Shown in pieces: positions 1 to 9,805 of a DNA stretch of 64,000 nt (within the stretch, counting starts at the first letter, position 1; every line of letters begins with the position of its first letter). The notes below the pieces were generated by a model, which worked only from the letters and a program-made list of their open reading frames with translations, did not search any database and was not told where the DNA came from. Source of the stretch: Clostridiales bacterium. GTDB lineage: Bacteria > Actinomycetota > Coriobacteriia > Anaerosomatales > SLCP01. The position numbers and the translations under genes are program-made. Location of the stretch: contig JAGXSG010000002.1 of the NCBI GenBank assembly GCA_018333995.1, forward strand, positions 1 through 64,000, written 5' to 3'.

Positions 1-415
1 CGAGTCCCGCAGCCTTCGCCGCGTACATCCCGCCTGCGTCCGCGACAAGCCGCAACTCCCCCGCATTCACGCGAGGTTGCAGCGCCTCGACCGCCGCCCG
101 CATGAGGGCCATGACCGGCTGAAGGTAGTGAAAGGAAAGTACCGTTGGCCTGATGCGATCGACGTCGTCCATAAGGCGCTCGTAGACGGCACGCGTGCCC
201 TCTCCACGTCCCCGATCGCCTCCAAGAACCGTCCACGGCGCCTCGGTGCCGAGGTACTCAGTCACGGCCAGTGCCGCCGAGAGCATCGCGGCCGAGCCCT
301 GGCACGACGGGATCTCGACGTTGCCGACGCGCAGAACGCCGTTGTCGCGCTCGACCTGACCGCACACCGTCTCGCCGATGCCGGTAGGGATCGTCGCTGC
401 AACGAGTAGTCTCAC
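1..415 (-). CDS. Partial protein of unknown function at the edge of the selenium cluster
   Basis: The GTG start at 413-415 overlaps the stop of the DUF3343 gene (GTGA). The frame stays open for 138 codons to the window edge, so the 3' end is missing. The N-terminus begins VRLLVAATIPTGIGETVCG and the visible end reads ADAGGMYAAKAAG, which loosely resembles ribokinase-fold or YjeF-type proteins; I do not recognise the family with confidence. Translational coupling to DUF3343, TusA and YedE genes suggests a role in selenium or sulfur handling, but that is only inferred from the neighbours. Confidence 0.7.
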   Translation of the reverse strand, partial: MRLLVAATIPTGIGETVCGQVERDNGVLRVGNVEIPSCQGSAAMLSAALAVTEYLGTEAPWTVLGGDRGRGEGTRAVYERLMDDVDRIRPTVLSFHYLQPVMALMRAAVEALQPRVNAGELRLVADAGGMYAAKAAGL

Positions 416-1047
416 CGGCCAGCACCCGCCTCACACGGAGCGAGTGTCTCGTCCGCGTTGAACGCTCGCACACCCTCGACCGAGTCCGGCACGGCGGTCC
501 CGTCGACCATTGAGCGCGCTTCAAGAAACGCGCGATCGAGCATGAGGCCGCAGAGCGTATAGCCGAGCTCCCGCGGTCTGCGGCCGTTATGCACGGTGTC
601 GCCCACCAACTCGAGGTTCAGGAACGGGATGTCGGGACACCCTCCGCCCGACGTGTTAACGATACGACCTGTATCCTTTTCCACAGTGATCTTCATGTTG
701 CCGGCTCGCACCATCAGGTGCTCGCCGAAGTCAACCCATGTCACGATGTCGGCGAGCTCAAGCGTACCCTCAAGCGTGTCCGCCCATCCGCGCGGCTCGA
801 CGTCACGCGACGCCAATTCACGCTCGGCTCCGGGACGTTCGACGGCGGCAATCGCAATTGCGAGGTCGCATCCCGCTCGCAGGCGCTGCGGAGGCGCGAC
901 GAGCTCAATATCGTAGCCCGCGGCCTTGAGTACCTTCTCCGCCTTCAGGGCAGACGTCACGTCGTCGAAGAGAAAGATGCCGACGGCCTCATCGACAACC
1001 GCACGTGCGACCGCGCCCTTCTGAGCTTTGCCAAACAGCCATTTCAC
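412..1047 (-). CDS. DUF3343-containing Se/S carrier-like protein
   Basis: A 211-residue protein. The first ~90 residues fit the DUF3343 (putative Se/S carrier-like) family, seen in FLFDDVTSALKAEKVLKAAG followed by GCDLAIAIA. The remaining ~120 residues are a longer extension with a single GGGCPD motif. DUF3343 genes commonly sit with yedE and tusA-like genes in organisms that use selenium. The GTG start at 1045-1047 overlaps the TusA stop (GTGA) and the stop overlaps the next GTG, so four genes form one operon. The role as a chalcogen carrier is a family-level inference; no enzymatic motif is visible. Confidence 0.8.
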   Translation of the reverse strand: MKWLFGKAQKGAVARAVVDEAVGIFLFDDVTSALKAEKVLKAAGYDIELVAPPQRLRAGCDLAIAIAAVERPGAERELASRDVEPRGWADTLEGTLELADIVTWVDFGEHLMVRAGNMKITVEKDTGRIVNTSGGGCPDIPFLNLELVGDTVHNGRRPRELGYTLCGLMLDRAFLEARSMVDGTAVPDSVEGVRAFNADETLAPCEAGAGR

Positions 1048-1253
1048 GATCGCTTCGCCTCAATCGTGAATCCGTCCGGCCCTTCGGCCACGTTGACGGT
1101 GTAGCCTTCGTCAGAAAGCAGGTTCGTGACGTTAGCCTTGGCGGTTCCCGAGTCAACGAGCACCCTCAGCGATTCAGGGTTGCTATCGAGCGCCTTTTTG
1201 GCCCGCATGAGCGGGAGCGGGCACGACAGGCCCCGAGCGTCCACCTCTACCAT
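1044..1253 (-). CDS. TusA/SirA-family sulfur (selenium) carrier protein
   Basis: A 69-residue protein starting at ATG 1251-1253, behind an AGAAGAG ribosome site. It shows the hallmark VDARGLSCPLPLMRAKKAL, whose Cys in the CPxP motif is the persulfide or perselenide carrier site of the family. It is encoded directly behind the YedE-type transporter and overlaps DUF3343. TusA-like proteins adjacent to YedE are associated with selenium trafficking in many anaerobes, so a selenium role is more likely here than thiouridine synthesis. A longer upstream extension of this frame has no start signal and was not used. Confidence 0.9.
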   Translation of the reverse strand: MVEVDARGLSCPLPLMRAKKALDSNPESLRVLVDSGTAKANVTNLLSDEGYTVNVAEGPDGFTIEAKRS

Positions 1254-1264
1254 CTCTTCTCCTC

Positions 1265-2500
1265 TCACACAACGCGTTCGCGCTTGATGAACAGAATCGC
1301 GGCAAGCACCACGGCCATCACGCCGAGCGCCAGCCACGCGTTTGGAGCGAGGCCCGCCGGTGACGACGCGAGTCCCTGCCAGTGGGCGAAGCCAGCGCCC
1401 GCGATCATGCCCACGACCGCCATGGTCGCATCCGCGTCACCTTCGCCCGACATGATGACCTGCCTAAACGGGCAACCGCCCATCATAATCGCAGTCAAGC
1501 CCGCGACCACCATCGCCGCGAAGTTGCCAAGCGCGTTGGTGTGCGCGACGGGCTGGCCGAGAAATCCGAGATTGAACTGACCGAAGGCCAGGTTGGCGAC
1601 GGTCGCCCCAATCAGCAGCCCCGCTACGCCGACCATAAGATCGAACCTGCGCACGAGCAGCACGTCACGGATGCCTCCTACCGTGCAAAATCTGCTGCGC
1701 TGCGCAACTATCCCGAACGCGAGGCCAGCGACAATCGAAATGAGGAAGGGGGCGCGCAGTCCGCCGGGAGCGGGCCGCGCCGCGGTTAGCTTCTCGGCTT
1801 CAACGAGCACCTCGCCGTCCGCTGCGACCACAGCACCTTCGACGATGCTCGCGCCCTCAGGCCTTAGCACATTTTCGCCCTGCACCACCGCGACGCCGGG
1901 GAATATCTTGGCCTTCTCGGGAGTGACCGTGAACGCGCCGAGAGCCGTGCCTGACGCCCACAGGGCCGCCAGCACGAATAGCACAGCGGCAATCGCCGGA
2001 CCCGTCCACCCAAACCCTGCGCCGAGCTTCTTCGCGCGTCCGAGGTTGTAGCCGCCCTTGAGCATAAGCGAGCCAACGCTCACACCGGCGATGATTCCTG
2101 CGATGCCATACAGCGCGTTCAGGTCGCCGCCGCCGAGCCTCAGCCATGCGCGAACCGTACAGCCGAGAAAGATGAGCGACGAGACCATGAAAATGAACCC
2201 AAGCACGAATCTAAGGATCGTCGCCGAGCCGCCGCGAGGACGAAACTCCCTCGTAAGAAGCGCCGCGCCGAGCGCCCCGCCGATTAGGCCGATAATCTCC
2301 GGCCTGATGTAAGCGACACCGCCCATGTTGGCGTTAGCACCCAGGAAAAAGCCCGCAATATCCCGGTTGAAGCATGCGATACACAACCCCATGTTGCCAG
2401 GATTCCCCATGCTCACGAGCCATGCGGCCCCCACTCCCAGCACGAGTCCCGCAGCACCGATGATCCACGCCGAAGGTCCGATCAAGCGATGTTTGAACAT
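1265..2500 (-). CDS. yedE: YedE-family putative selenium transporter
   Basis: A 411-residue polytopic membrane protein of the YedE/YeeE (PF04143) family, in the form linked to selenium metabolism. About ten hydrophobic segments are visible. Conserved Cys-containing stretches include GNMGLCIACFNRDIAGFF, QRSRFCTVGGIRDVLL and GGCPFRQVIMSGEGD. The start is ATG 2498-2500 after a purine-rich AAGAAGGGGG tract. The open frame extends upstream to 2941, but that part is low-complexity and crosses the promoter region. It is the first gene of the yedE-tusA-DUF3343-unknown operon. The substrate, a selenium or sulfur species, is inferred from family and context. Confidence 0.88.
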   Translation of the reverse strand: MFKHRLIGPSAWIIGAAGLVLGVGAAWLVSMGNPGNMGLCIACFNRDIAGFFLGANANMGGVAYIRPEIIGLIGGALGAALLTREFRPRGGSATILRFVLGFIFMVSSLIFLGCTVRAWLRLGGGDLNALYGIAGIIAGVSVGSLMLKGGYNLGRAKKLGAGFGWTGPAIAAVLFVLAALWASGTALGAFTVTPEKAKIFPGVAVVQGENVLRPEGASIVEGAVVAADGEVLVEAEKLTAARPAPGGLRAPFLISIVAGLAFGIVAQRSRFCTVGGIRDVLLVRRFDLMVGVAGLLIGATVANLAFGQFNLGFLGQPVAHTNALGNFAAMVVAGLTAIMMGGCPFRQVIMSGEGDADATMAVVGMIAGAGFAHWQGLASSPAGLAPNAWLALGVMAVVLAAILFIKRERVV

Positions 2501-2551
2501 GCGCGCCCCCTTCTTTGATGCACCCCGAGAGTGAACATGACTATAGCTGAC

Positions 2552-2569
2552 ATAATATCTACTTATTAT
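2552..2569. promoter_or_regulatory. AT-rich palindrome upstream of the selenium operon
   Basis: ATAATATCTACTTATTAT is an imperfect inverted repeat (ATAAT...ATTAT) in otherwise GC-rich DNA, about 50 bases upstream of the YedE start and between divergent transcription units. It could contain promoter elements for the minus-strand operon and an operator for a dimeric repressor. No regulator can be assigned. Confidence 0.35.
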
Positions 2570-2750
2570 CAACCACGTCAACCGACAACCCCTAGCCGAG
2601 GATCCCCGGGAGGTAGCTCGCGGCCTACTGGCCCGGAGCAGGGGCCTGGAGGCAAGATACAGGCATGCGCTCGCCTGCGTCGCGTGAACCGTGCGAGCCA
2701 CGGGAACGTCATATTGCTTGTGAGATCCACAGTCGACCGAGGGAGTGACG

Positions 2751-3200
2751 ATGAGCATCCGTGTATCGAGTGGGCGCGCCCGGCGCGCGATCCTGCTGAC
2801 AGCATTGTTCGCGCTTGTGCTGTCTCTGGTAGCCGCGTGCGCCGGGGCCGGCGGGCCGGATGAGTTGGATGGTACGGCGTGGCAGCTCGTCGGGTGGGCC
2901 GAGGAGGCGACCGATCCCGCTGCGCATACCGTCACGATCATCTTCGATGGAGATCAGGCGGGTGGCCAGGCGCCGGTGAATTCGTACGGCGGCACGTTCT
3001 CCACGGGGCGCGGCGGCGCGTTCGCGACGAGCGAGATCGCCCAGACGCTCATGGCGGGATCCGAGCCGGCCATGGAGGCCGAGGCAACGTACTTCCGGCT
3101 CCTGGCTGAGGCGGCATCCTACGAGGTGACCGCGGAGCGGCTGGCGCTCTCCAACGCCGGGGGCGACGAGGTTCTCGTGTTCGAACCGCTGGCCCGCTAA
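2751..3200 (+). CDS. META-domain lipoprotein
   Basis: A 149-residue secreted lipoprotein. A signal peptide (RRAILLTALFALVLSLVAAC) ends in a lipobox with Cys near residue 29. The remainder matches the small META/HslJ-like domain, with LDGTAWQLVGW, VNSYGGTFSTG and a closing VFEP strand. ATG 2751 is chosen because GAGGGAG lies just upstream; a GTG six bases earlier has no ribosome site. HslJ-like proteins sit at the membrane and have been linked to heat-shock and antibiotic tolerance, but the molecular role is unknown. It is the only plus-strand gene before 29 kb. Confidence 0.85.
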   Translation: MSIRVSSGRARRAILLTALFALVLSLVAACAGAGGPDELDGTAWQLVGWAEEATDPAAHTVTIIFDGDQAGGQAPVNSYGGTFSTGRGGAFATSEIAQTLMAGSEPAMEAEATYFRLLAEAASYEVTAERLALSNAGGDEVLVFEPLAR

Positions 3201-3377
3201 GAGCGAGGGTCCGCCGCCGACTCGAGGGAGATGTCGATATCGAGGCCGGAGCGCTAAATCACATCAACTCTCCGGGCAAACTGTGTCACTCGACGAGAAC
3301 GTGTGAGGCCCGAGTCCGTTCGCGATCAGCCGCAGCTCGAACTCGGCGTGCCTTTCGCGGAGGCTCGCGGCCTCCTA

Positions 3378-3776
3378 CTACGTCAACGCGTTGACTGCCC
3401 GCGCGTCGTCCTCCGTCTTGACGATGGCGAGTGCTGTGCCAGCGCCGGAAGCCACCGACGCGTACGCCCAGCGCATGTCGATGCCTGCCTCGGCGATCGC
3501 GCGCGCGACGGATTCGAGCGCGCCGGGCTCGTCGCTCAGCTCCACGGCCACCGCGGTATGCTCCGTCACGTCGGCCTGCAGGCGCTCGAGGGCGGCAGCA
3601 GCTGCCGCGTTGTCGCTCGTCACCAGCATGAACTCGCCGCGGTCTTCCTTGCGGTACGCTCCGATCGCGATGATGTTCACGCCTGCTTCCCGGATGACCT
3701 CGCCGACATCGGCGAGCAGTCCGATGCGGTTCGGGAGCTTCACGACGAGCTCGTGCGTGAGGTGTGCGCGTGTCAT
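3378..3776 (-). CDS. Tandem ACT-domain protein
   Basis: A 132-residue protein made of two ACT domains: residues ~6-65 (HELVVKLPNRIGLLADVGEV, a ligand-binding glycine-rich start) and ~72-130 (VAVELSDEPGALESVARAI). There is no catalytic domain, so it is probably a stand-alone amino-acid-sensing regulator. An AAGGGG ribosome site precedes the ATG. It lies downstream of hgcB with a ~100-base gap, so co-transcription with hgcAB is possible but not shown. Confidence 0.85.
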   Translation of the reverse strand: MTRAHLTHELVVKLPNRIGLLADVGEVIREAGVNIIAIGAYRKEDRGEFMLVTSDNAAAAAALERLQADVTEHTAVAVELSDEPGALESVARAIAEAGIDMRWAYASVASGAGTALAIVKTEDDARAVNALT

Positions 3777-3877
3777 ACGAATCGCCCCTTCGTTCGTGCG
3801 TGACTTACGCTAGAATTCATACCCGCCGAGGCGCGTACTCCCGCATGCTTCGGAGCCGGGACGTCAGTCAGTCGCCG

Positions 3878-4165
3878 TCAGTCGCATCCGCACGAGGGCT
3901 CGGAGCCGGTCAGCCACCCGTGGATGACGGCGGCGGCACATCCCACGCCCGCATCGACGCTGATGGCTGCCGCCGGGCAGTTGCGTGCACACGCGCCGCA
4001 CTCGATACAGCGGTCTCGGTCTGTGAGGGTCGCGCGACCGTCGGGCGACATCTCGAAGACACCATGAGGGCAGACAACGGTGCACATGCGGCACCCGGTG
4101 CACGCCGACCGGTCGAGTGCGACGGTCGTCACGCCGTCGATGTAGCGCAGGTCGCTCGTACTCAT
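3878..4165 (-). CDS. hgcB: HgcB, mercury methylation ferredoxin
   Basis: A 95-residue ferredoxin with two CxxCxxCxxxCP [4Fe-4S] motifs: Cys22, 25, 28, 32 (CTGCRMCTVVCP) and Cys53, 56, 59, 63 (CIECGACARNCP). It also has an isolated Cys76 and a C-terminal Cys pair in SCGCD (92, 94). The extra internal Cys and the terminal Cys pair separate HgcB from ordinary 2[4Fe-4S] ferredoxins. In the established model it reduces the HgcA corrinoid and may hand over Hg(II). Start ATG 4163-4165 lies two bases after the hgcA stop, so the pair is translationally coupled. Confidence 0.95.
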   Translation of the reverse strand: MSTSDLRYIDGVTTVALDRSACTGCRMCTVVCPHGVFEMSPDGRATLTDRDRCIECGACARNCPAAAISVDAGVGCAAAVIHGWLTGSEPSCGCD

Positions 4166-4167
4166 CG

Positions 4168-5244
4168 TCAGACCACCGCCGACACGGCGAGGGAGACGAG
4201 CGTCGCGGCCGCGAGGGCCAGCTGCACGGGGATGGCGCGGCGCATCTCCCACAGGACGCCGGAGGGCGAGGTGAACGTCGAGGAACCGGTGAAGTTCATC
4301 GCGGTGTAGGACGACACGGCCGTCATGCCGAGGAACACCGCGGCCATGCCCGCCGGGTCGAGCCAGCGAGCCGTCACTCCGAGGAAGACGGCCGCAAGCG
4401 CAGTGCCTACGAGCGCGCCTTTGACCGCGAACATCCTGCCAGGGATAGCGGGTAGTGCGGCCGGCACCACGAATCCTCCCGCCACAACAGCGAAGATGCC
4501 CGCGGCCAGTGCGACGAGCACCGGGGGCCAGGTCACGAGTCCGAATGCTGCGAGAGCGATGAGCAGCCCCGCAGCGACGAGTACGCGTCGGTCCCGCAGC
4601 GCGGACAGCTCGACGCCGGTGAGGACGAGGCGGTCTGCGAGTCCGAAACGGACTCGCCGCATCTCGGCGGTCGCACGCATCTCGGCGTCGAGGAATGCTG
4701 GCAGGTCAGAGGCCCGGATCGGACCGTAGACGACGCGGAATCCGGTCGCTTCGCGTACCTCGTGTGCGGCCACTCCCGGAGCACCGAGTTGGGGCAGTAC
4801 GAGCGTGCGATGTTCGGTGAGGTGCTCGATGCCGCACTCGCGGACGCGGAAGATAACTTCGGACGTCCCGAACGTGCCCTTTCCCGCGGCGCACCACACG
4901 TTGACGCCGTGCGTGTTGAGGGCGATCAGCCAGGCGGATCGCCCGGTGAGCGCGAAGCGCACGGCGTCGAAAGAGAGCGTGTAGTTGGCTGTCACCAAGA
5001 CGGGGGAGCGCTCATCGGGCTCGCCGATCGCGTAGAGCCCCGGGCGTACACGTCTGCCCGAGCGACGGAACCCCAGTCGTGCGCCGATCGCCTCGAATCG
5101 GTCGTGCCGGGTGATGCTGGTGGTGACCCGCGGCACCGGACCGAACAGAGTGTCGACCTCCCCATCGATGGAGGAGGGGCGTCCGTATTCGTAGGTGTCG
5201 GGCGCAGGCCCGCAACAGGTGCTCGGTCCGCAGCAGCCGCTCAT
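4168..5244 (-). CDS. hgcA: HgcA, corrinoid mercury methyltransferase
   Basis: A 358-residue protein. The corrinoid-binding domain carries the diagnostic cap-helix motif NVWCAAGKGTFGT, with Cys118 as predicted lower-axial cobalt ligand. Further family blocks are VLPQLGAPGVAAHEV, VVYGPIRASDLPAFL and AMNFTGSSTFTSPSGV. Four to five membrane helices fill residues ~220-357. The start is ATG 5242-5244 behind GGAGGG. HgcA moves a methyl group to Hg(II) to make methylmercury and is necessary with HgcB for the activity. An unusual Cys-rich head (GCCGPSTCCGP, residues 3-13) precedes the corrinoid domain. Identity is secure; activity is inferred. Confidence 0.97.
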   Translation of the reverse strand: MSGCCGPSTCCGPAPDTYEYGRPSSIDGEVDTLFGPVPRVTTSITRHDRFEAIGARLGFRRSGRRVRPGLYAIGEPDERSPVLVTANYTLSFDAVRFALTGRSAWLIALNTHGVNVWCAAGKGTFGTSEVIFRVRECGIEHLTEHRTLVLPQLGAPGVAAHEVREATGFRVVYGPIRASDLPAFLDAEMRATAEMRRVRFGLADRLVLTGVELSALRDRRVLVAAGLLIALAAFGLVTWPPVLVALAAGIFAVVAGGFVVPAALPAIPGRMFAVKGALVGTALAAVFLGVTARWLDPAGMAAVFLGMTAVSSYTAMNFTGSSTFTSPSGVLWEMRRAIPVQLALAAATLVSLAVSAVV

Positions 5245-5308
5245 GTCACGACCCTCCATCCGGTCTGCGCTCGGCGGCCGGGTGTCGAAGACAGAAGCCC
5301 TGTCATGC

Positions 5309-5336
5309 AGTATACGCAGCTGGCTCACTGGATCAA
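5309..5336 (-). promoter_or_regulatory. Sigma70-like promoter of hgcAB
   Basis: On the minus strand TTGATC (-35, 5331-5336) and TATACT (-10, 5309-5314) are separated by 16 bases. Transcription would start near 5302, giving a ~60-base leader before hgcA. No mercury- or arsenic-type operator palindrome stands out around it. Confidence 0.6.
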
Positions 5337-5408
5337 CTAGCGACCCGACGGTAGCGCTCTCGATCCGGGGTGGGGCACTGAAGCTTTCGCCGAACGCAGG
5401 TCTGAGAC

Positions 5409-7313
5409 TTACCCCCTGCGCAGCACTCTCGCGTCGCCCTCGCGCCTGGTCAGTCCGGTCGCATCGAAGTACTCGAGGAGCGGCAACGTGTACTTCCGGC
5501 TCACGCCGAGCACATCACGCAACTCGGCGGGAGACGCGCTCCCCTTCTCGCGCAGGTGCCGCTCGACACGCGCCGCCGCGTCCGCGATCGCTTCGGCGTC
5601 GAAGTGCAGCAACACACTGAGCCGAACCACCGCGCCCTCGGCGGCCATGCGCCCGAGGATCCTGGCCGCTGTCTTCTCGTCGATCCCGACTTCTTGTCCC
5701 CACTGTCTCGGGGTCGCCGGAGCAAGCCCGTCCCGCTTGACTAGAGCCGCGAGCGCTCTGGCCGCGGCATCTTCAGCCGCGATCGCTGACACCGCCGCAG
5801 CCGGGTGGCGCACCTCACCCTTCTCGGCCCGAGCGACTTTCCGCTCCACCGCAGCTTCGATGAGCGCGTCGAACACCTTGGGTTCGATCCTTCGGTCAAC
5901 CCGGTAGCGAAGCGCCGATGTCGCGATGCCGGTCGCCTTAGGTTCTGCCTCGTGAAACGCGAGCAATTCGCGTTCGATCGCCTCGCACAGTCCGTCAAGC
6001 GCCTCGGCGGTGACAAAGAGTGTCTCCCCGCCCGCCTTCAGGCGCTGGAGCTTGGCGCGGTTGAGCTCATCGGCGACCTCGGCACGCGGCACTCCCAGCG
6101 CGGCGGCCACCTCGGCGGAGGTCATCGGGATCGCTCGCGACGCGAGGAGCCCTATCGCGGCCTTCGAAAGATCACCCGCCAGAAGCGCTTCGAGCAACTC
6201 CCGTTCATGCGTGCGCAGGGTCGTGCGGCGAGGCGGCAACGCGTCGAGAACCACCCCGCCACCGATCGTATACACCGGCGAGTACGACCGCACGATGAAG
6301 CGGTCACCGTAGCGCGGAGCGAGCGGCTCGTCGAGACGGATCTGCGCGAACACCGACTCGCCCCTTGCGAGTCGCGCGCCCTCGGTGAGCAACACCCGCC
6401 CGATGACTTCCCGTGTCCCGTGGTGCACGTGCACGCGAGCTCCCGACACGAAGGGCTCATCGCCGCCGGGCATGCCGAGGTAGGTGAACCGTGCGTCGAA
6501 CCGGTCGGTCACGGTGAGGGTTCCGGGCGCGGCAACCGTGTCTCCACGTGAGATCTCACTCTTCTCAAGCCCAGCAATGTTGATCGCGACGCGCTGACCC
6601 GCCGACGCCGCCGATACCTGCTCGGAGTGAACCTGTACACCACGCACCCGGCCCTGTACGCGCGAGGGCAGCAGCTCAACCGCGTCGTCCCTGGCGACCT
6701 TGCCTGACCACATCGTGCCGGTCACCACGGTGCCAGCTCCCGTGATCGTGAACACCCGATCGACGGGCAGCCGCATCGGCAGGTTGGCGTGGCGCGCCGG
6801 AGCCTCAACGGCGACCCGGTCAAGCTCTGCGAGAAGCTCAGGGATGCCCGAACCCGTCACCGCCGACACCGGCACGATCGAAGCGCCGGCTATCGAGGTG
6901 GCGTCGACGAGCGCGCGCACCTCTTCGGTGACAAGCTCGATCCACTCGGGATCGGCAAGGTCGGCCTTCGTGAGCGCGACCACCCCGCTCTCCACGCCAA
7001 GCAGGTCGACGATCGCGAGGTGCTCACGGGTCTGAGGCATAATGCCGTCGTCGGCCGCGACCACGAAGAGCACGACATCGATCCCGGTCGCTCCGGCGAC
7101 CATGTGTCGCACGAACCGCTCATGGCCGGGCATATCGACCACACCCATCGATCTGCCGCTTGGCAACGTGAGGCGCGCGAAACCGAGCTCGATGGTGATG
7201 CCGCGCGCTTTCTCTTCCGCGAGACGGTCGGGGTCGGTGCCGGTGATCGCCTTGACCAGCGTGGACTTGCCGTGGTCGATGTGCCCGGCGGTACCGAGTA
7301 CCAGCGAAGGCAT
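5409..7313 (-). CDS. selB: Selenocysteine-specific elongation factor SelB
   Basis: A 634-residue translational GTPase. G1 is [13 protein letters not shown] at residues ~6-18, with DMPGHE (G3) and TKAD (G4) following, then EF-Tu-like barrels. The C-terminal third contains the winged-helix repeats that bind SECIS RNA. The start ATG 7311-7313 lies four bases after the selA stop; the longer open frame overlaps selA and is not real. SelB delivers Sec-tRNA(Sec) to UGA codons with a SECIS, including the one in selD of this window. The gene for tRNA(Sec) was not found here. Confidence 0.97.
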
Positions 7314-7317
7314 CTGC

Positions 7318-8718
7318 CTACCCCGCTCCGAGAAGCACCGATGCGACCCTGTCGACGATGCCGGACTCATCGGCGACCGATAGTGTCCGCGGATCGAGCA
7401 GCACGCGATCGTCCTTGATCCGGGCCACCACCGGCGGCTCGGCGCGCCGCATCCGCCGTTCGAGTTCGACGGCAGAAACGCCGTTCGGCTTGATGCGCAC
7501 GACCACCGAGGGGATATCGGCGAGAGGCAACGCGCCGCCTCCCGCACGCGAGACGTCGTCGGCGATATCGAGTATCGCACGATCCCCCACACGCTCGGCG
7601 ATCCGCTCGGCGAGCGCCGCGGCACGCACCCCAATCTCGTCTTTGGATGCCGAGAGCATGCGGAGCACGGGGATCTCGGCGAGCGCGGCCTCCGGATCGA
7701 TGTACGTGCGCAACGTGACCTCGAGTGCGGCGAGCGTTAATTTGTCGAGGCGCAGGGCGCGGGCCATGGGGTGCTTTTTCAGACGGCGGATGACGTGCTC
7801 GCGTCCTACGAGGATGCCGGCCTGCGGTCCGCCGAGCAGCTTGTCGCCAGAGCACGACACGAGGTCGGCGCCAGCCGCGATCGACTCGGCCACCGTGGGC
7901 TCGTGCGGCAGTCCCCACTGGCGAACGTCCACGAGCACTCCGGATCCCTGGTCTTCGAAGACCGGCACACCGTGGGCCGCCCCCAGCAAGACGAGCTCGT
8001 CGAGGCCGACCTCCTGCGTGAATCCGACTACACGGAAGTTGCTCGAGTGGACCTTGAGAATCACCCCGGTACGCTCTGTGAGCGCACCCTCATAGTCCGC
8101 GAGGTGGGTCTTGTTAGTCGTGCCCACCTCGACCATCGTCGCGCCGGACTCCCGCATGATGTCGGGTATGCGAAAGCTTCCGCCGATCTCTACAAGCTGA
8201 CCGCGGCTGACAATCGCCTCTTTGCCGCGCGCAAGCGCGGCGAGCGCGAGCATGACCGCTGCGGCGTTGTTGTTGACGGCCATCGCCGCCTCGGCCCCCG
8301 TGATCTTGCAGAGCAACTCCTCGCAGTGCGTGTGACGGCTACCTCGTTCTCCGGTCACGACGTCGTACTCGAGCGTGGAGTACGACCCGGCGACCTCCGC
8401 GACCGCCGCTGTCGCCCGCTCAGAGAGGATCGAGCGCCCGAGGTTCGTGTGCACAATGATCCCGGTGGCGTTGATCACGCGACGCAGCGAGCGCTGCGAC
8501 TTGAGCGCGACCCGGCTCGTCGCGTCGGTCAGCAGCCCACTCTCGTCATACTCGATCCCCGCATCCGAAAGCAGCCGCGCGCGCCAGACGTCGATCGCCT
8601 CACGCAACGCGTCGAGTACGAGCGGCCGTGGGTATTCTTCGAGCAGCGCGGCGACTGTTGGGTGACGTAGCAGATCGTCGACCTTCGGCAGGCGCCTCAA
8701 CCGTTCCTGGGTGTCCAT
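7318..8718 (-). CDS. selA: L-seryl-tRNA(Sec) selenium transferase SelA
   Basis: A 466-residue PLP enzyme converting Ser-tRNA(Sec) to Sec-tRNA(Sec) with selenophosphate. Visible are the N-terminal domain ([14 protein letters not shown]), the glycine/asparagine-rich cofactor region ([14 protein letters not shown]) and the PLP lysine in [14 protein letters not shown]. The start is ATG 8716-8718. It lies between selD (55 bases upstream) and selB (4 bases downstream), forming selDAB. Length fits the bacterial family (~460). Confidence 0.97.
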
Positions 8719-8773
8719 ACGCGTGATTCTACCTGTTCGCTGAGGTGTTTGTGAGCACATGCACAGCACGAGA

Positions 8774-9805
8774 CTACACGACGACGATCCTGCCTGGCTC
8801 TCCGTGTTCCATCTCGCCCACGACCGAAGCCGACTCTCCACGTGCTGCGAGCGCCGCGAGGAGATCACCGGCTCGCGCCGGATCGACCGCCATGAGCAGT
8901 CCTCCGCTCGTCTGCGGGTCGCACAGCGCGTCCTTCCATTCCCGCTTGATCCCGCCCCACTCCACAAACGGGTCGAGCGCGGTGATCACGTCGAGCGTAC
9001 GGCCGGGCTTGACCCCGTCGCGGCCGTACTCCAACGCACCCGGCCACACCGGAACCGCACGCGTCTCGACACGTGCCGCGCACCCGCTTGCGAGCGCCAT
9101 CTCCCTTAAGTGGCCGATCAGCCCGAAGCCAGTGACGTCGGTCGCGGCGTTCACTCCCACCTCGACCATCGCTTCGGCGGCGGCCTTGTTGAGGTGCGCC
9201 ATCGACTCGATCACTTCACTAAGCGACTCTTCAGTCTCAAGACCGGCCTTGAGCGCGGTGTTCATGATGCCCACGCCAATCCGCTTGGTCACGACGAGCG
9301 TATCACCAGGACGGGCGCCTGCGTTGCGTACGACTTTTCCTGGCTCGGCCTCGCCCATCACGGCCAATCCGAACTTGGGCTCCTTGTCGTCGATCGTGTG
9401 CCCCCCCGCGACGAGCACCCCAGCGAGCGCGCACGTATCAGCGCCGCCCTTCAAGACTTGCGCCACCACCCCGGGATCCATCGAGCAGGGAAACGCGAGC
9501 AAGTTAAGCGCGACGAGCGGGCGGCCACCCATGGCGTAGATATCGGAAAGCGCGTTGGCCGCAGTGATGCGGCCAAAATCGTACGGGTCATCGACCATCG
9601 GCGTGAAAAAGTCGACGGTAAGCAAGATGGCACGATCGCCGAGCAGGTATACCGCGGCGTCATCGCTAGTCTCGAAGCCCACCATGAGCTGTTCGGATTC
9701 TTGCGGAGCGAGTGTGGAAAGTACCGCTGCGAGATCCTCCGGACCCCACTTGGCAGCTCAACCGGCTTTGCTCGACAGCTGCGTCAAACGTACAGGCTCA
9801 CCCAT
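8774..9805 (-). CDS. selD: Selenide, water dikinase SelD, selenocysteine-containing
   Basis: SelD makes selenophosphate from selenide and ATP. Conventional calling would begin at residue ~41, but the frame continues upstream to ATG 9803-9805 through one in-frame UGA at 9758-9760. The upstream residues read LTQLSSKAGUAAKWGPEDL, matching the conserved SelD head whose catalytic residue is Cys or Sec, so UGA encodes Sec16. The full 343 residues match normal SelD length (~340). A hairpin directly after the UGA fits a bacterial SECIS. Downstream are selA and selB; the GGDEF/EAL gene ends seven bases upstream. Confidence 0.95.
9726..9757 (-). promoter_or_regulatory. Candidate bacterial SECIS element in selD
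   Basis: Immediately 3' of the Sec UGA, GCTGC pairs with GCAGC at the base. Inside it GGTCC pairs with GGATC (one G-U), closing a short GGA loop 18-20 bases after the UGA. Guanines in an apical loop at this distance are typical of SECIS elements read by SelB. The fold was drawn by eye. Confidence 0.75.

Follow-up and report, generated by a model that had tools for sequence, protein, structure and literature searches.

A mercury-methylation hgcAB gene pair in an inferred Coriobacteriia genome, with a cysteine-rich HgcA N-terminus that likely carries selenocysteine in some relatives

The hgcAB locus

Microbes that make methylmercury are known to do so by means of the gene pair hgcA and hgcB. 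Both genes were found in the window (the whole stretch of DNA analyzed, 64,000 nucleotides, which is the first 64 kb of its contig), at the positions 3878-5244 given in the initial annotation; the strand, which that annotation did not state, is the minus strand, with hgcB after hgcA (Table 1). As had been described, the genes are two bases apart (4166-4167). The hgcA start is an ATG at 5244, preceded by a GGAGG ribosome-binding site, and the promoter proposed ahead of it agrees with the single sigma-70-like site found by scanning this region (5336-5309, against 0.1 expected in shuffles). The order hgcA-hgcB-ACT is also present in a relative of the same family (L044/L002), whose ACT protein is 89% identical. 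At five other loci (L047, L048, L049, L050 and L056) a gene for a small ArsR-like regulator lies directly upstream of hgcA; it is absent in the window.

Table 1. Positions of the hgcAB genes and of associated features in the window
Feature	Position	Strand	Description
hgcA	4168-5244	-	358 aa, putatively membrane-bound corrinoid protein; NCBIfam NF040863
hgcB	3878-4165	-	95 aa, two-[4Fe-4S] ferredoxin; NCBIfam NF040864
HgcA N-terminal Cys tail	5206-5244	-	MSGCCGPSTCCGP; outside the NCBIfam match
Cap-helix motif NVWCAAGK, cobalt-ligand Cys118	4879-4902	-	HgcA residues 115-122
Sigma-70-like promoter match, upstream of hgcA	5309-5336	-	TTGATC-16-TATACT; consensus match only
ACT-domain protein gene, downstream of hgcB	3378-3776	-	PF01842
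selD	8774-9805	-	Begins upstream of the listed ATG; in-frame TGA (LSSKAGUAAKWGP)

Identity of HgcA and HgcB

Searched against the curated NCBIfam equivalogs, both proteins passed the family cut-offs: HgcA reached 395.9 bits (cut-off 275, E = 1.3e-118), the match spanning residues 37-356 and profile positions 1-323 of 325, and HgcB reached 117.6 bits (cut-off 99, E = 1.6e-34). On these E-values, chance is excluded as the source of the hgcAB match. The motifs on which the initial annotation had based the names are also present. In HgcA, the diagnostic NVWCAAGK contains Cys118 (codon TGC), and N115, V116, W117, C118, A119, G121 and K122 are invariant across 22 homologues; the TSPSGV block was found as well. 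With respect to the C-terminal region, the match to the family, whose membrane domain has five helices, runs to residue 356, and a simple hydropathy analysis marked segments at 242-260, 272-295 and 340-358 only.

It could be argued that this HgcA is instead the corrinoid iron-sulfur protein (CFeSP/CdhE) of the Wood-Ljungdahl pathway, or a protein that resembles it, given that PF03599 gives a partial match of 55 bits and that solved CFeSP chains match at 1e-9. However, the match is confined to the C-terminal corrinoid domain (residues 65-189 only for the solved chains), the CFeSP gamma-subunit model (CdhE/AcsC) scores 78 bits (cut-off 306) against the 396 of the HgcA equivalog, and HgcA has the cap-helix cysteine and a region that aligns with the membrane domain of its family. 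On the profile scores and the cap-helix motif we rejected the CFeSP reading, to which we attach almost no probability.

In HgcB, the two [4Fe-4S] motifs (CxxCxxCxxxCP, with Cys 22/25/28/32 and 53/56/59/63) were recovered, and so was the additional Cys76, which sits in GVGC and is the equivalent of the strictly conserved Cys73 of ND132. The claim of a terminal cysteine pair stands only in part, since HgcB has two terminal cysteines in its ending SCGCD (Cys92-Gly-Cys94-Asp95), but a glycine separates them and the vicinal pair of ND132 HgcB is absent from this sequence end. It should be noted that the vicinal pair is not universal in the family; at least two tail cysteines are present in 1317 of 2432 HgcB (PMC7305189). 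A reading of the terminal TGA of hgcB as selenocysteine was rejected, as the frame beyond it is unconserved, the closest relative has TGA and a second stop, and several relatives end at the same place with TAA or TAG.

Other HgcB proteins present different ends. Those of L066 (8686-8949, minus strand) and L061 (5270-5539, minus strand) have long Cys-rich C-terminal tails with several CC pairs. At L056 (7780-8989, minus strand), and also at L042, hgcB continues in one open frame, with no stop, into an arsenite methyltransferase; in L056, from a 99% complete genome of the order of the window's host, this second part scores 348 bits (cut-off 263), and the frame is an apparent HgcB-ArsM fusion or fused reading frame.

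Host genome and distribution of hgcA

The host genome has 1.95 Mb, with 98.9% completeness and 2.3% contamination. The nearest named HgcA, 78% identical, belongs to a Coriobacteriia MAG (SKMN01000006.1) of the same family as the host, from which we infer that the host is an actinobacterium of the class Coriobacteriia; following McDaniel et al., the order would be OPB41. This agrees with the actinobacterial host proposed in the initial annotation, and the rest of the contig points in the same direction: the enolase of the window, taken as a control, shares 88-91% identity with the enolases of the host's family and 77-86% with those from elsewhere in the order.

Beyond Actinobacteria, Desulfuromonadales and other Deltaproteobacteria account for most of the best named relatives of HgcA (44-52% identity), as would be the case if hgcAB lay on a contaminating deltaproteobacterial contig in the bin. 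Against this stand the 78% identical HgcA of a named family member, whose locus has the hgcAB-ACT order too, and the identities of the flanking enolase, which together make contamination unlikely; the GC content of the hgcAB stretch (68%) also resembles that of its surroundings (62-68%). Accordingly, we consider a deltaproteobacterial contaminant extremely improbable, and hgcAB appears to belong to the Coriobacteriia lineage.

Of the 69 genomes of the order, 36 contain a full hgcA above the family cut-off, as do six of the nine from the host's family and 10 of 396 drawn across the phylum. In a tree of 59 HgcA cores, the protein of the window grouped with its family (6 rows, 100/97); this group is nested in larger ones with 12 rows (100/99) and 17 rows (98/96) that contain only members of this order. 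HgcA from further members of the order sit elsewhere in the tree, in clades apart from this one, consistent with earlier accounts of horizontal transfer of hgcAB (PMC7438021; PMC9948709). One genome (G034; loci L063 and L064, named records L003 and L007, UBA7524) carries two different hgcAB pairs.

The N-terminal cysteine tail of HgcA

Ahead of the family match, which begins at residue 37, HgcA has an N-terminal tail that was not mentioned in the initial annotation. It holds CCGPSTCCGP, with cysteines at residues 4, 5, 10 and 11. When CCGP is compared with CUGP, the position of Cys5 is that of selenocysteine in some relatives: Cys-UGA-Gly-Pro was found at this site in nine HgcA of the window's order (L024, L025, L029, L035, L051 and L089-L092) and in two elsewhere in the phylum (L069 and L077), and C-UGA-P-P in the deltaproteobacterial L016 and L018. 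Ten other deltaproteobacterial HgcA (L005, L006 and L008-L015) have a long N-terminal tail with repeated CCPP motifs.

In the 11 actinobacterial hgcA with this UGA, a 7-bp hairpin always lies nine bases past it. In the alignment, 89.6% of the cells pair, against 75% in shuffles, and both partners vary in six of the seven base pairs; for four of the five measures only 0-1 in 500 shuffles did as well, and the slid controls collapse, although the hairpin was chosen from folds of the same sequences and some bias towards it remains in these values. The covariation gives good grounds to regard the hairpin as a SECIS element and to read the UGA as selenocysteine in the HgcA of these relatives, in agreement with the selenoprotein HgcA (motif CU) already listed in a review (PMC13188914) and credited to Haft and Gwadz 2023 in PMC11588087. 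At the tail of the window's hgcA there are Cys codons and no in-frame UGA, and no hairpin was found above chance (z = -0.16). Our search of titles and abstracts found no work dealing with an N-terminal cysteine extension of HgcA.

Selenium is also present in the neighborhood of hgcAB. A cluster of selenium genes (412-9805: Se/S-carrier, YedF-like, YedE, selB, selA and selD) flanks the pair, which is situated between the YedE transporter (352.9 bits), YedF-like and Se/S-carrier genes on the one hand and selB-selA-selD on the other. SelD itself is probably a selenoprotein; its in-frame UGA and a tRNA-Sec in the genome (74 bits) suggest that the host has the capacity for selenocysteine synthesis. 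This location, together with the Sec-containing HgcA encoded by some relatives, could indicate a functional tie between hgcAB and the surrounding selenium locus. Nevertheless, such genes were not found near hgcAB at any other locus examined, including the 78% identical relative with the same hgcAB-ACT order, and the HgcA of the window itself uses cysteine. We rejected the linkage on its absence in other members of the order and regard it as very unlikely; the adjacency, private to the host genome among those examined, is best read as a chance placement.

The tails of HgcA and HgcB were then compared, with their states assigned by hand from likely start codons and chiefly in Actinobacteria. Within the order, and leaving out the Sec forms, all 13 HgcA with a CC tail are accompanied by an HgcB without a terminal CC, and 11 of the 12 tail-less HgcA by an HgcB ending in CC, the start of the exception (L038) being uncertain. 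The association has a Fisher p of 2.7e-6, uncorrected for kinship, and p = 0.003 with the Sec forms included or p = 0.0013 with all rows. On the tree, the tail state changes about 8 to 10 times for HgcA and 6 times for HgcB; since kinship leaves too few independent changes (3-4 supported pairs), a sign test was not significant. In Desulfuromonadales the two tails occur together, so that the trade is not general. A shift of the Hg-loading dithiol from HgcB to HgcA is thus a tentative proposal, less likely than not, which so small a number of independent changes cannot prove.

Discussion

The initial annotation had expected the range of methylators to be extended by an actinobacterial host. This was already out of date, because McDaniel et al. 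reported in 2020 17 hgcA+ Actinobacteria, of which nine were Coriobacteriia, all nine of the order OPB41 (PMC7438021). The hgcAB of the window is a well-supported, unremarkable member of an established family, from a host group known since 2020, and what it adds is a near-complete genome to that group. With hgcA in roughly half of the genomes sampled from the order, its members deserve consideration as potential methylators; the literature searched contained no demonstration of mercury methylation by an actinobacterium. Less familiar is the Cys-rich front end of HgcA, apparently built with selenocysteine in some related bacteria, and the chemistry of this tail is the part worth following.

Regarding the mechanism, the two proteins very probably form an HgcAB complex that operates in the usual way; the cofactor, SAM and Hg(II) as the substrate are taken by analogy from the biochemistry of ND132, in which cobalamin is attached to HgcA by a cobalt-thiolate bond, two [4Fe-4S] clusters are found in HgcB and the methyl donor is SAM (PMC11588087). 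The N-terminal domain of HgcA, anchored through the C-terminal membrane domain, would carry the corrinoid, with the cap-helix Cys118 as ligand of the cobalt. HgcB, a two-cluster ferredoxin, would reduce the cobalt; the reduced corrinoid would be methylated by SAM, as shown for the HgcAB of ND132, and the methyl group would then pass to Hg(II) held on cysteine thiols, giving methylmercury. SAM would be the simplest methyl source, as the host lacks a CFeSP: PF03599 above its cut-off finds only HgcA in the genome. MerB had no match in the host genome, but the control genomes were equally silent, so that this blank is no sign of its absence.

The absence of the vicinal pair from HgcB could be raised against such a complex. 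In ND132, the double mutation of Cys94 and Cys95 of HgcB costs 95% of the activity, although either single mutation is without effect (PMC7305189); one C-terminal cysteine would then suffice, and two are present here. Because HgcB keeps only a CxC, the CCGP-CC tail of HgcA may have taken over the capture of Hg(II) in this lineage, wholly or in part, a speculative role. An exchangeable Cys/Sec tail on HgcA offers a testable idea on the transfer of Hg(II) to the corrinoid, and on the possible importance of selenium to some methylators.

Another aspect to mention is the substrate. The pair could be a true HgcAB homologue that acts in the cell mainly on something other than mercury, such as a different metal or metalloid, with the activity on mercury a side effect. 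This would be in line with the view that HgcAB does not serve to detoxify Hg (PMC7305189), with the open frame that joins HgcB to an arsenite methyltransferase in L056, of the same order, and with the ArsR-like gene upstream of hgcA in some relatives. On the other side, Hg methylation is the known activity of the family and nothing in the window points to another substrate, for which reasons we hold this alternative to be rather unlikely and maintain mercury as the probable substrate.

Compared with known systems, the pair is the same as the OPB41 HgcAB of McDaniel et al. (PMC7438021), which are known from genomes only, and comes from the same class and, as inferred, the same order; the window represents another genome, unmatched to a specific MAG of that work. 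With the HgcAB of Pseudodesulfovibrio mercurii ND132 (PMC11588087, PMC7305189) it shares the cap-helix cysteine (118 here and 93 in ND132), the corrinoid domain, a probable membrane domain and the two clusters of HgcB, including the correspondence of Cys76 with Cys73; it differs in the end of HgcB, CGCD instead of the Cys94-Cys95 pair, and in the Cys-rich N-tail of HgcA before the family model. The HgcAB-like fusion protein (NF043039) has corrinoid and ferredoxin parts homologous to HgcA and HgcB, but it is one protein, whereas in the window there are two separate genes, and the score against that model is 200 bits, below its cut-off of 285. From the large subunit of the CFeSP (CdhE/AcsC), HgcA differs in lacking the full-length architecture, as it covers only profile positions 266-386 of the 387 of PF03599. 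Finally, the selenoprotein HgcA, as read from the relatives, has in common with that of the window the N-terminal C-[C/U]-G-P site, with selenocysteine in the former and Cys codons without a hairpin in the latter.
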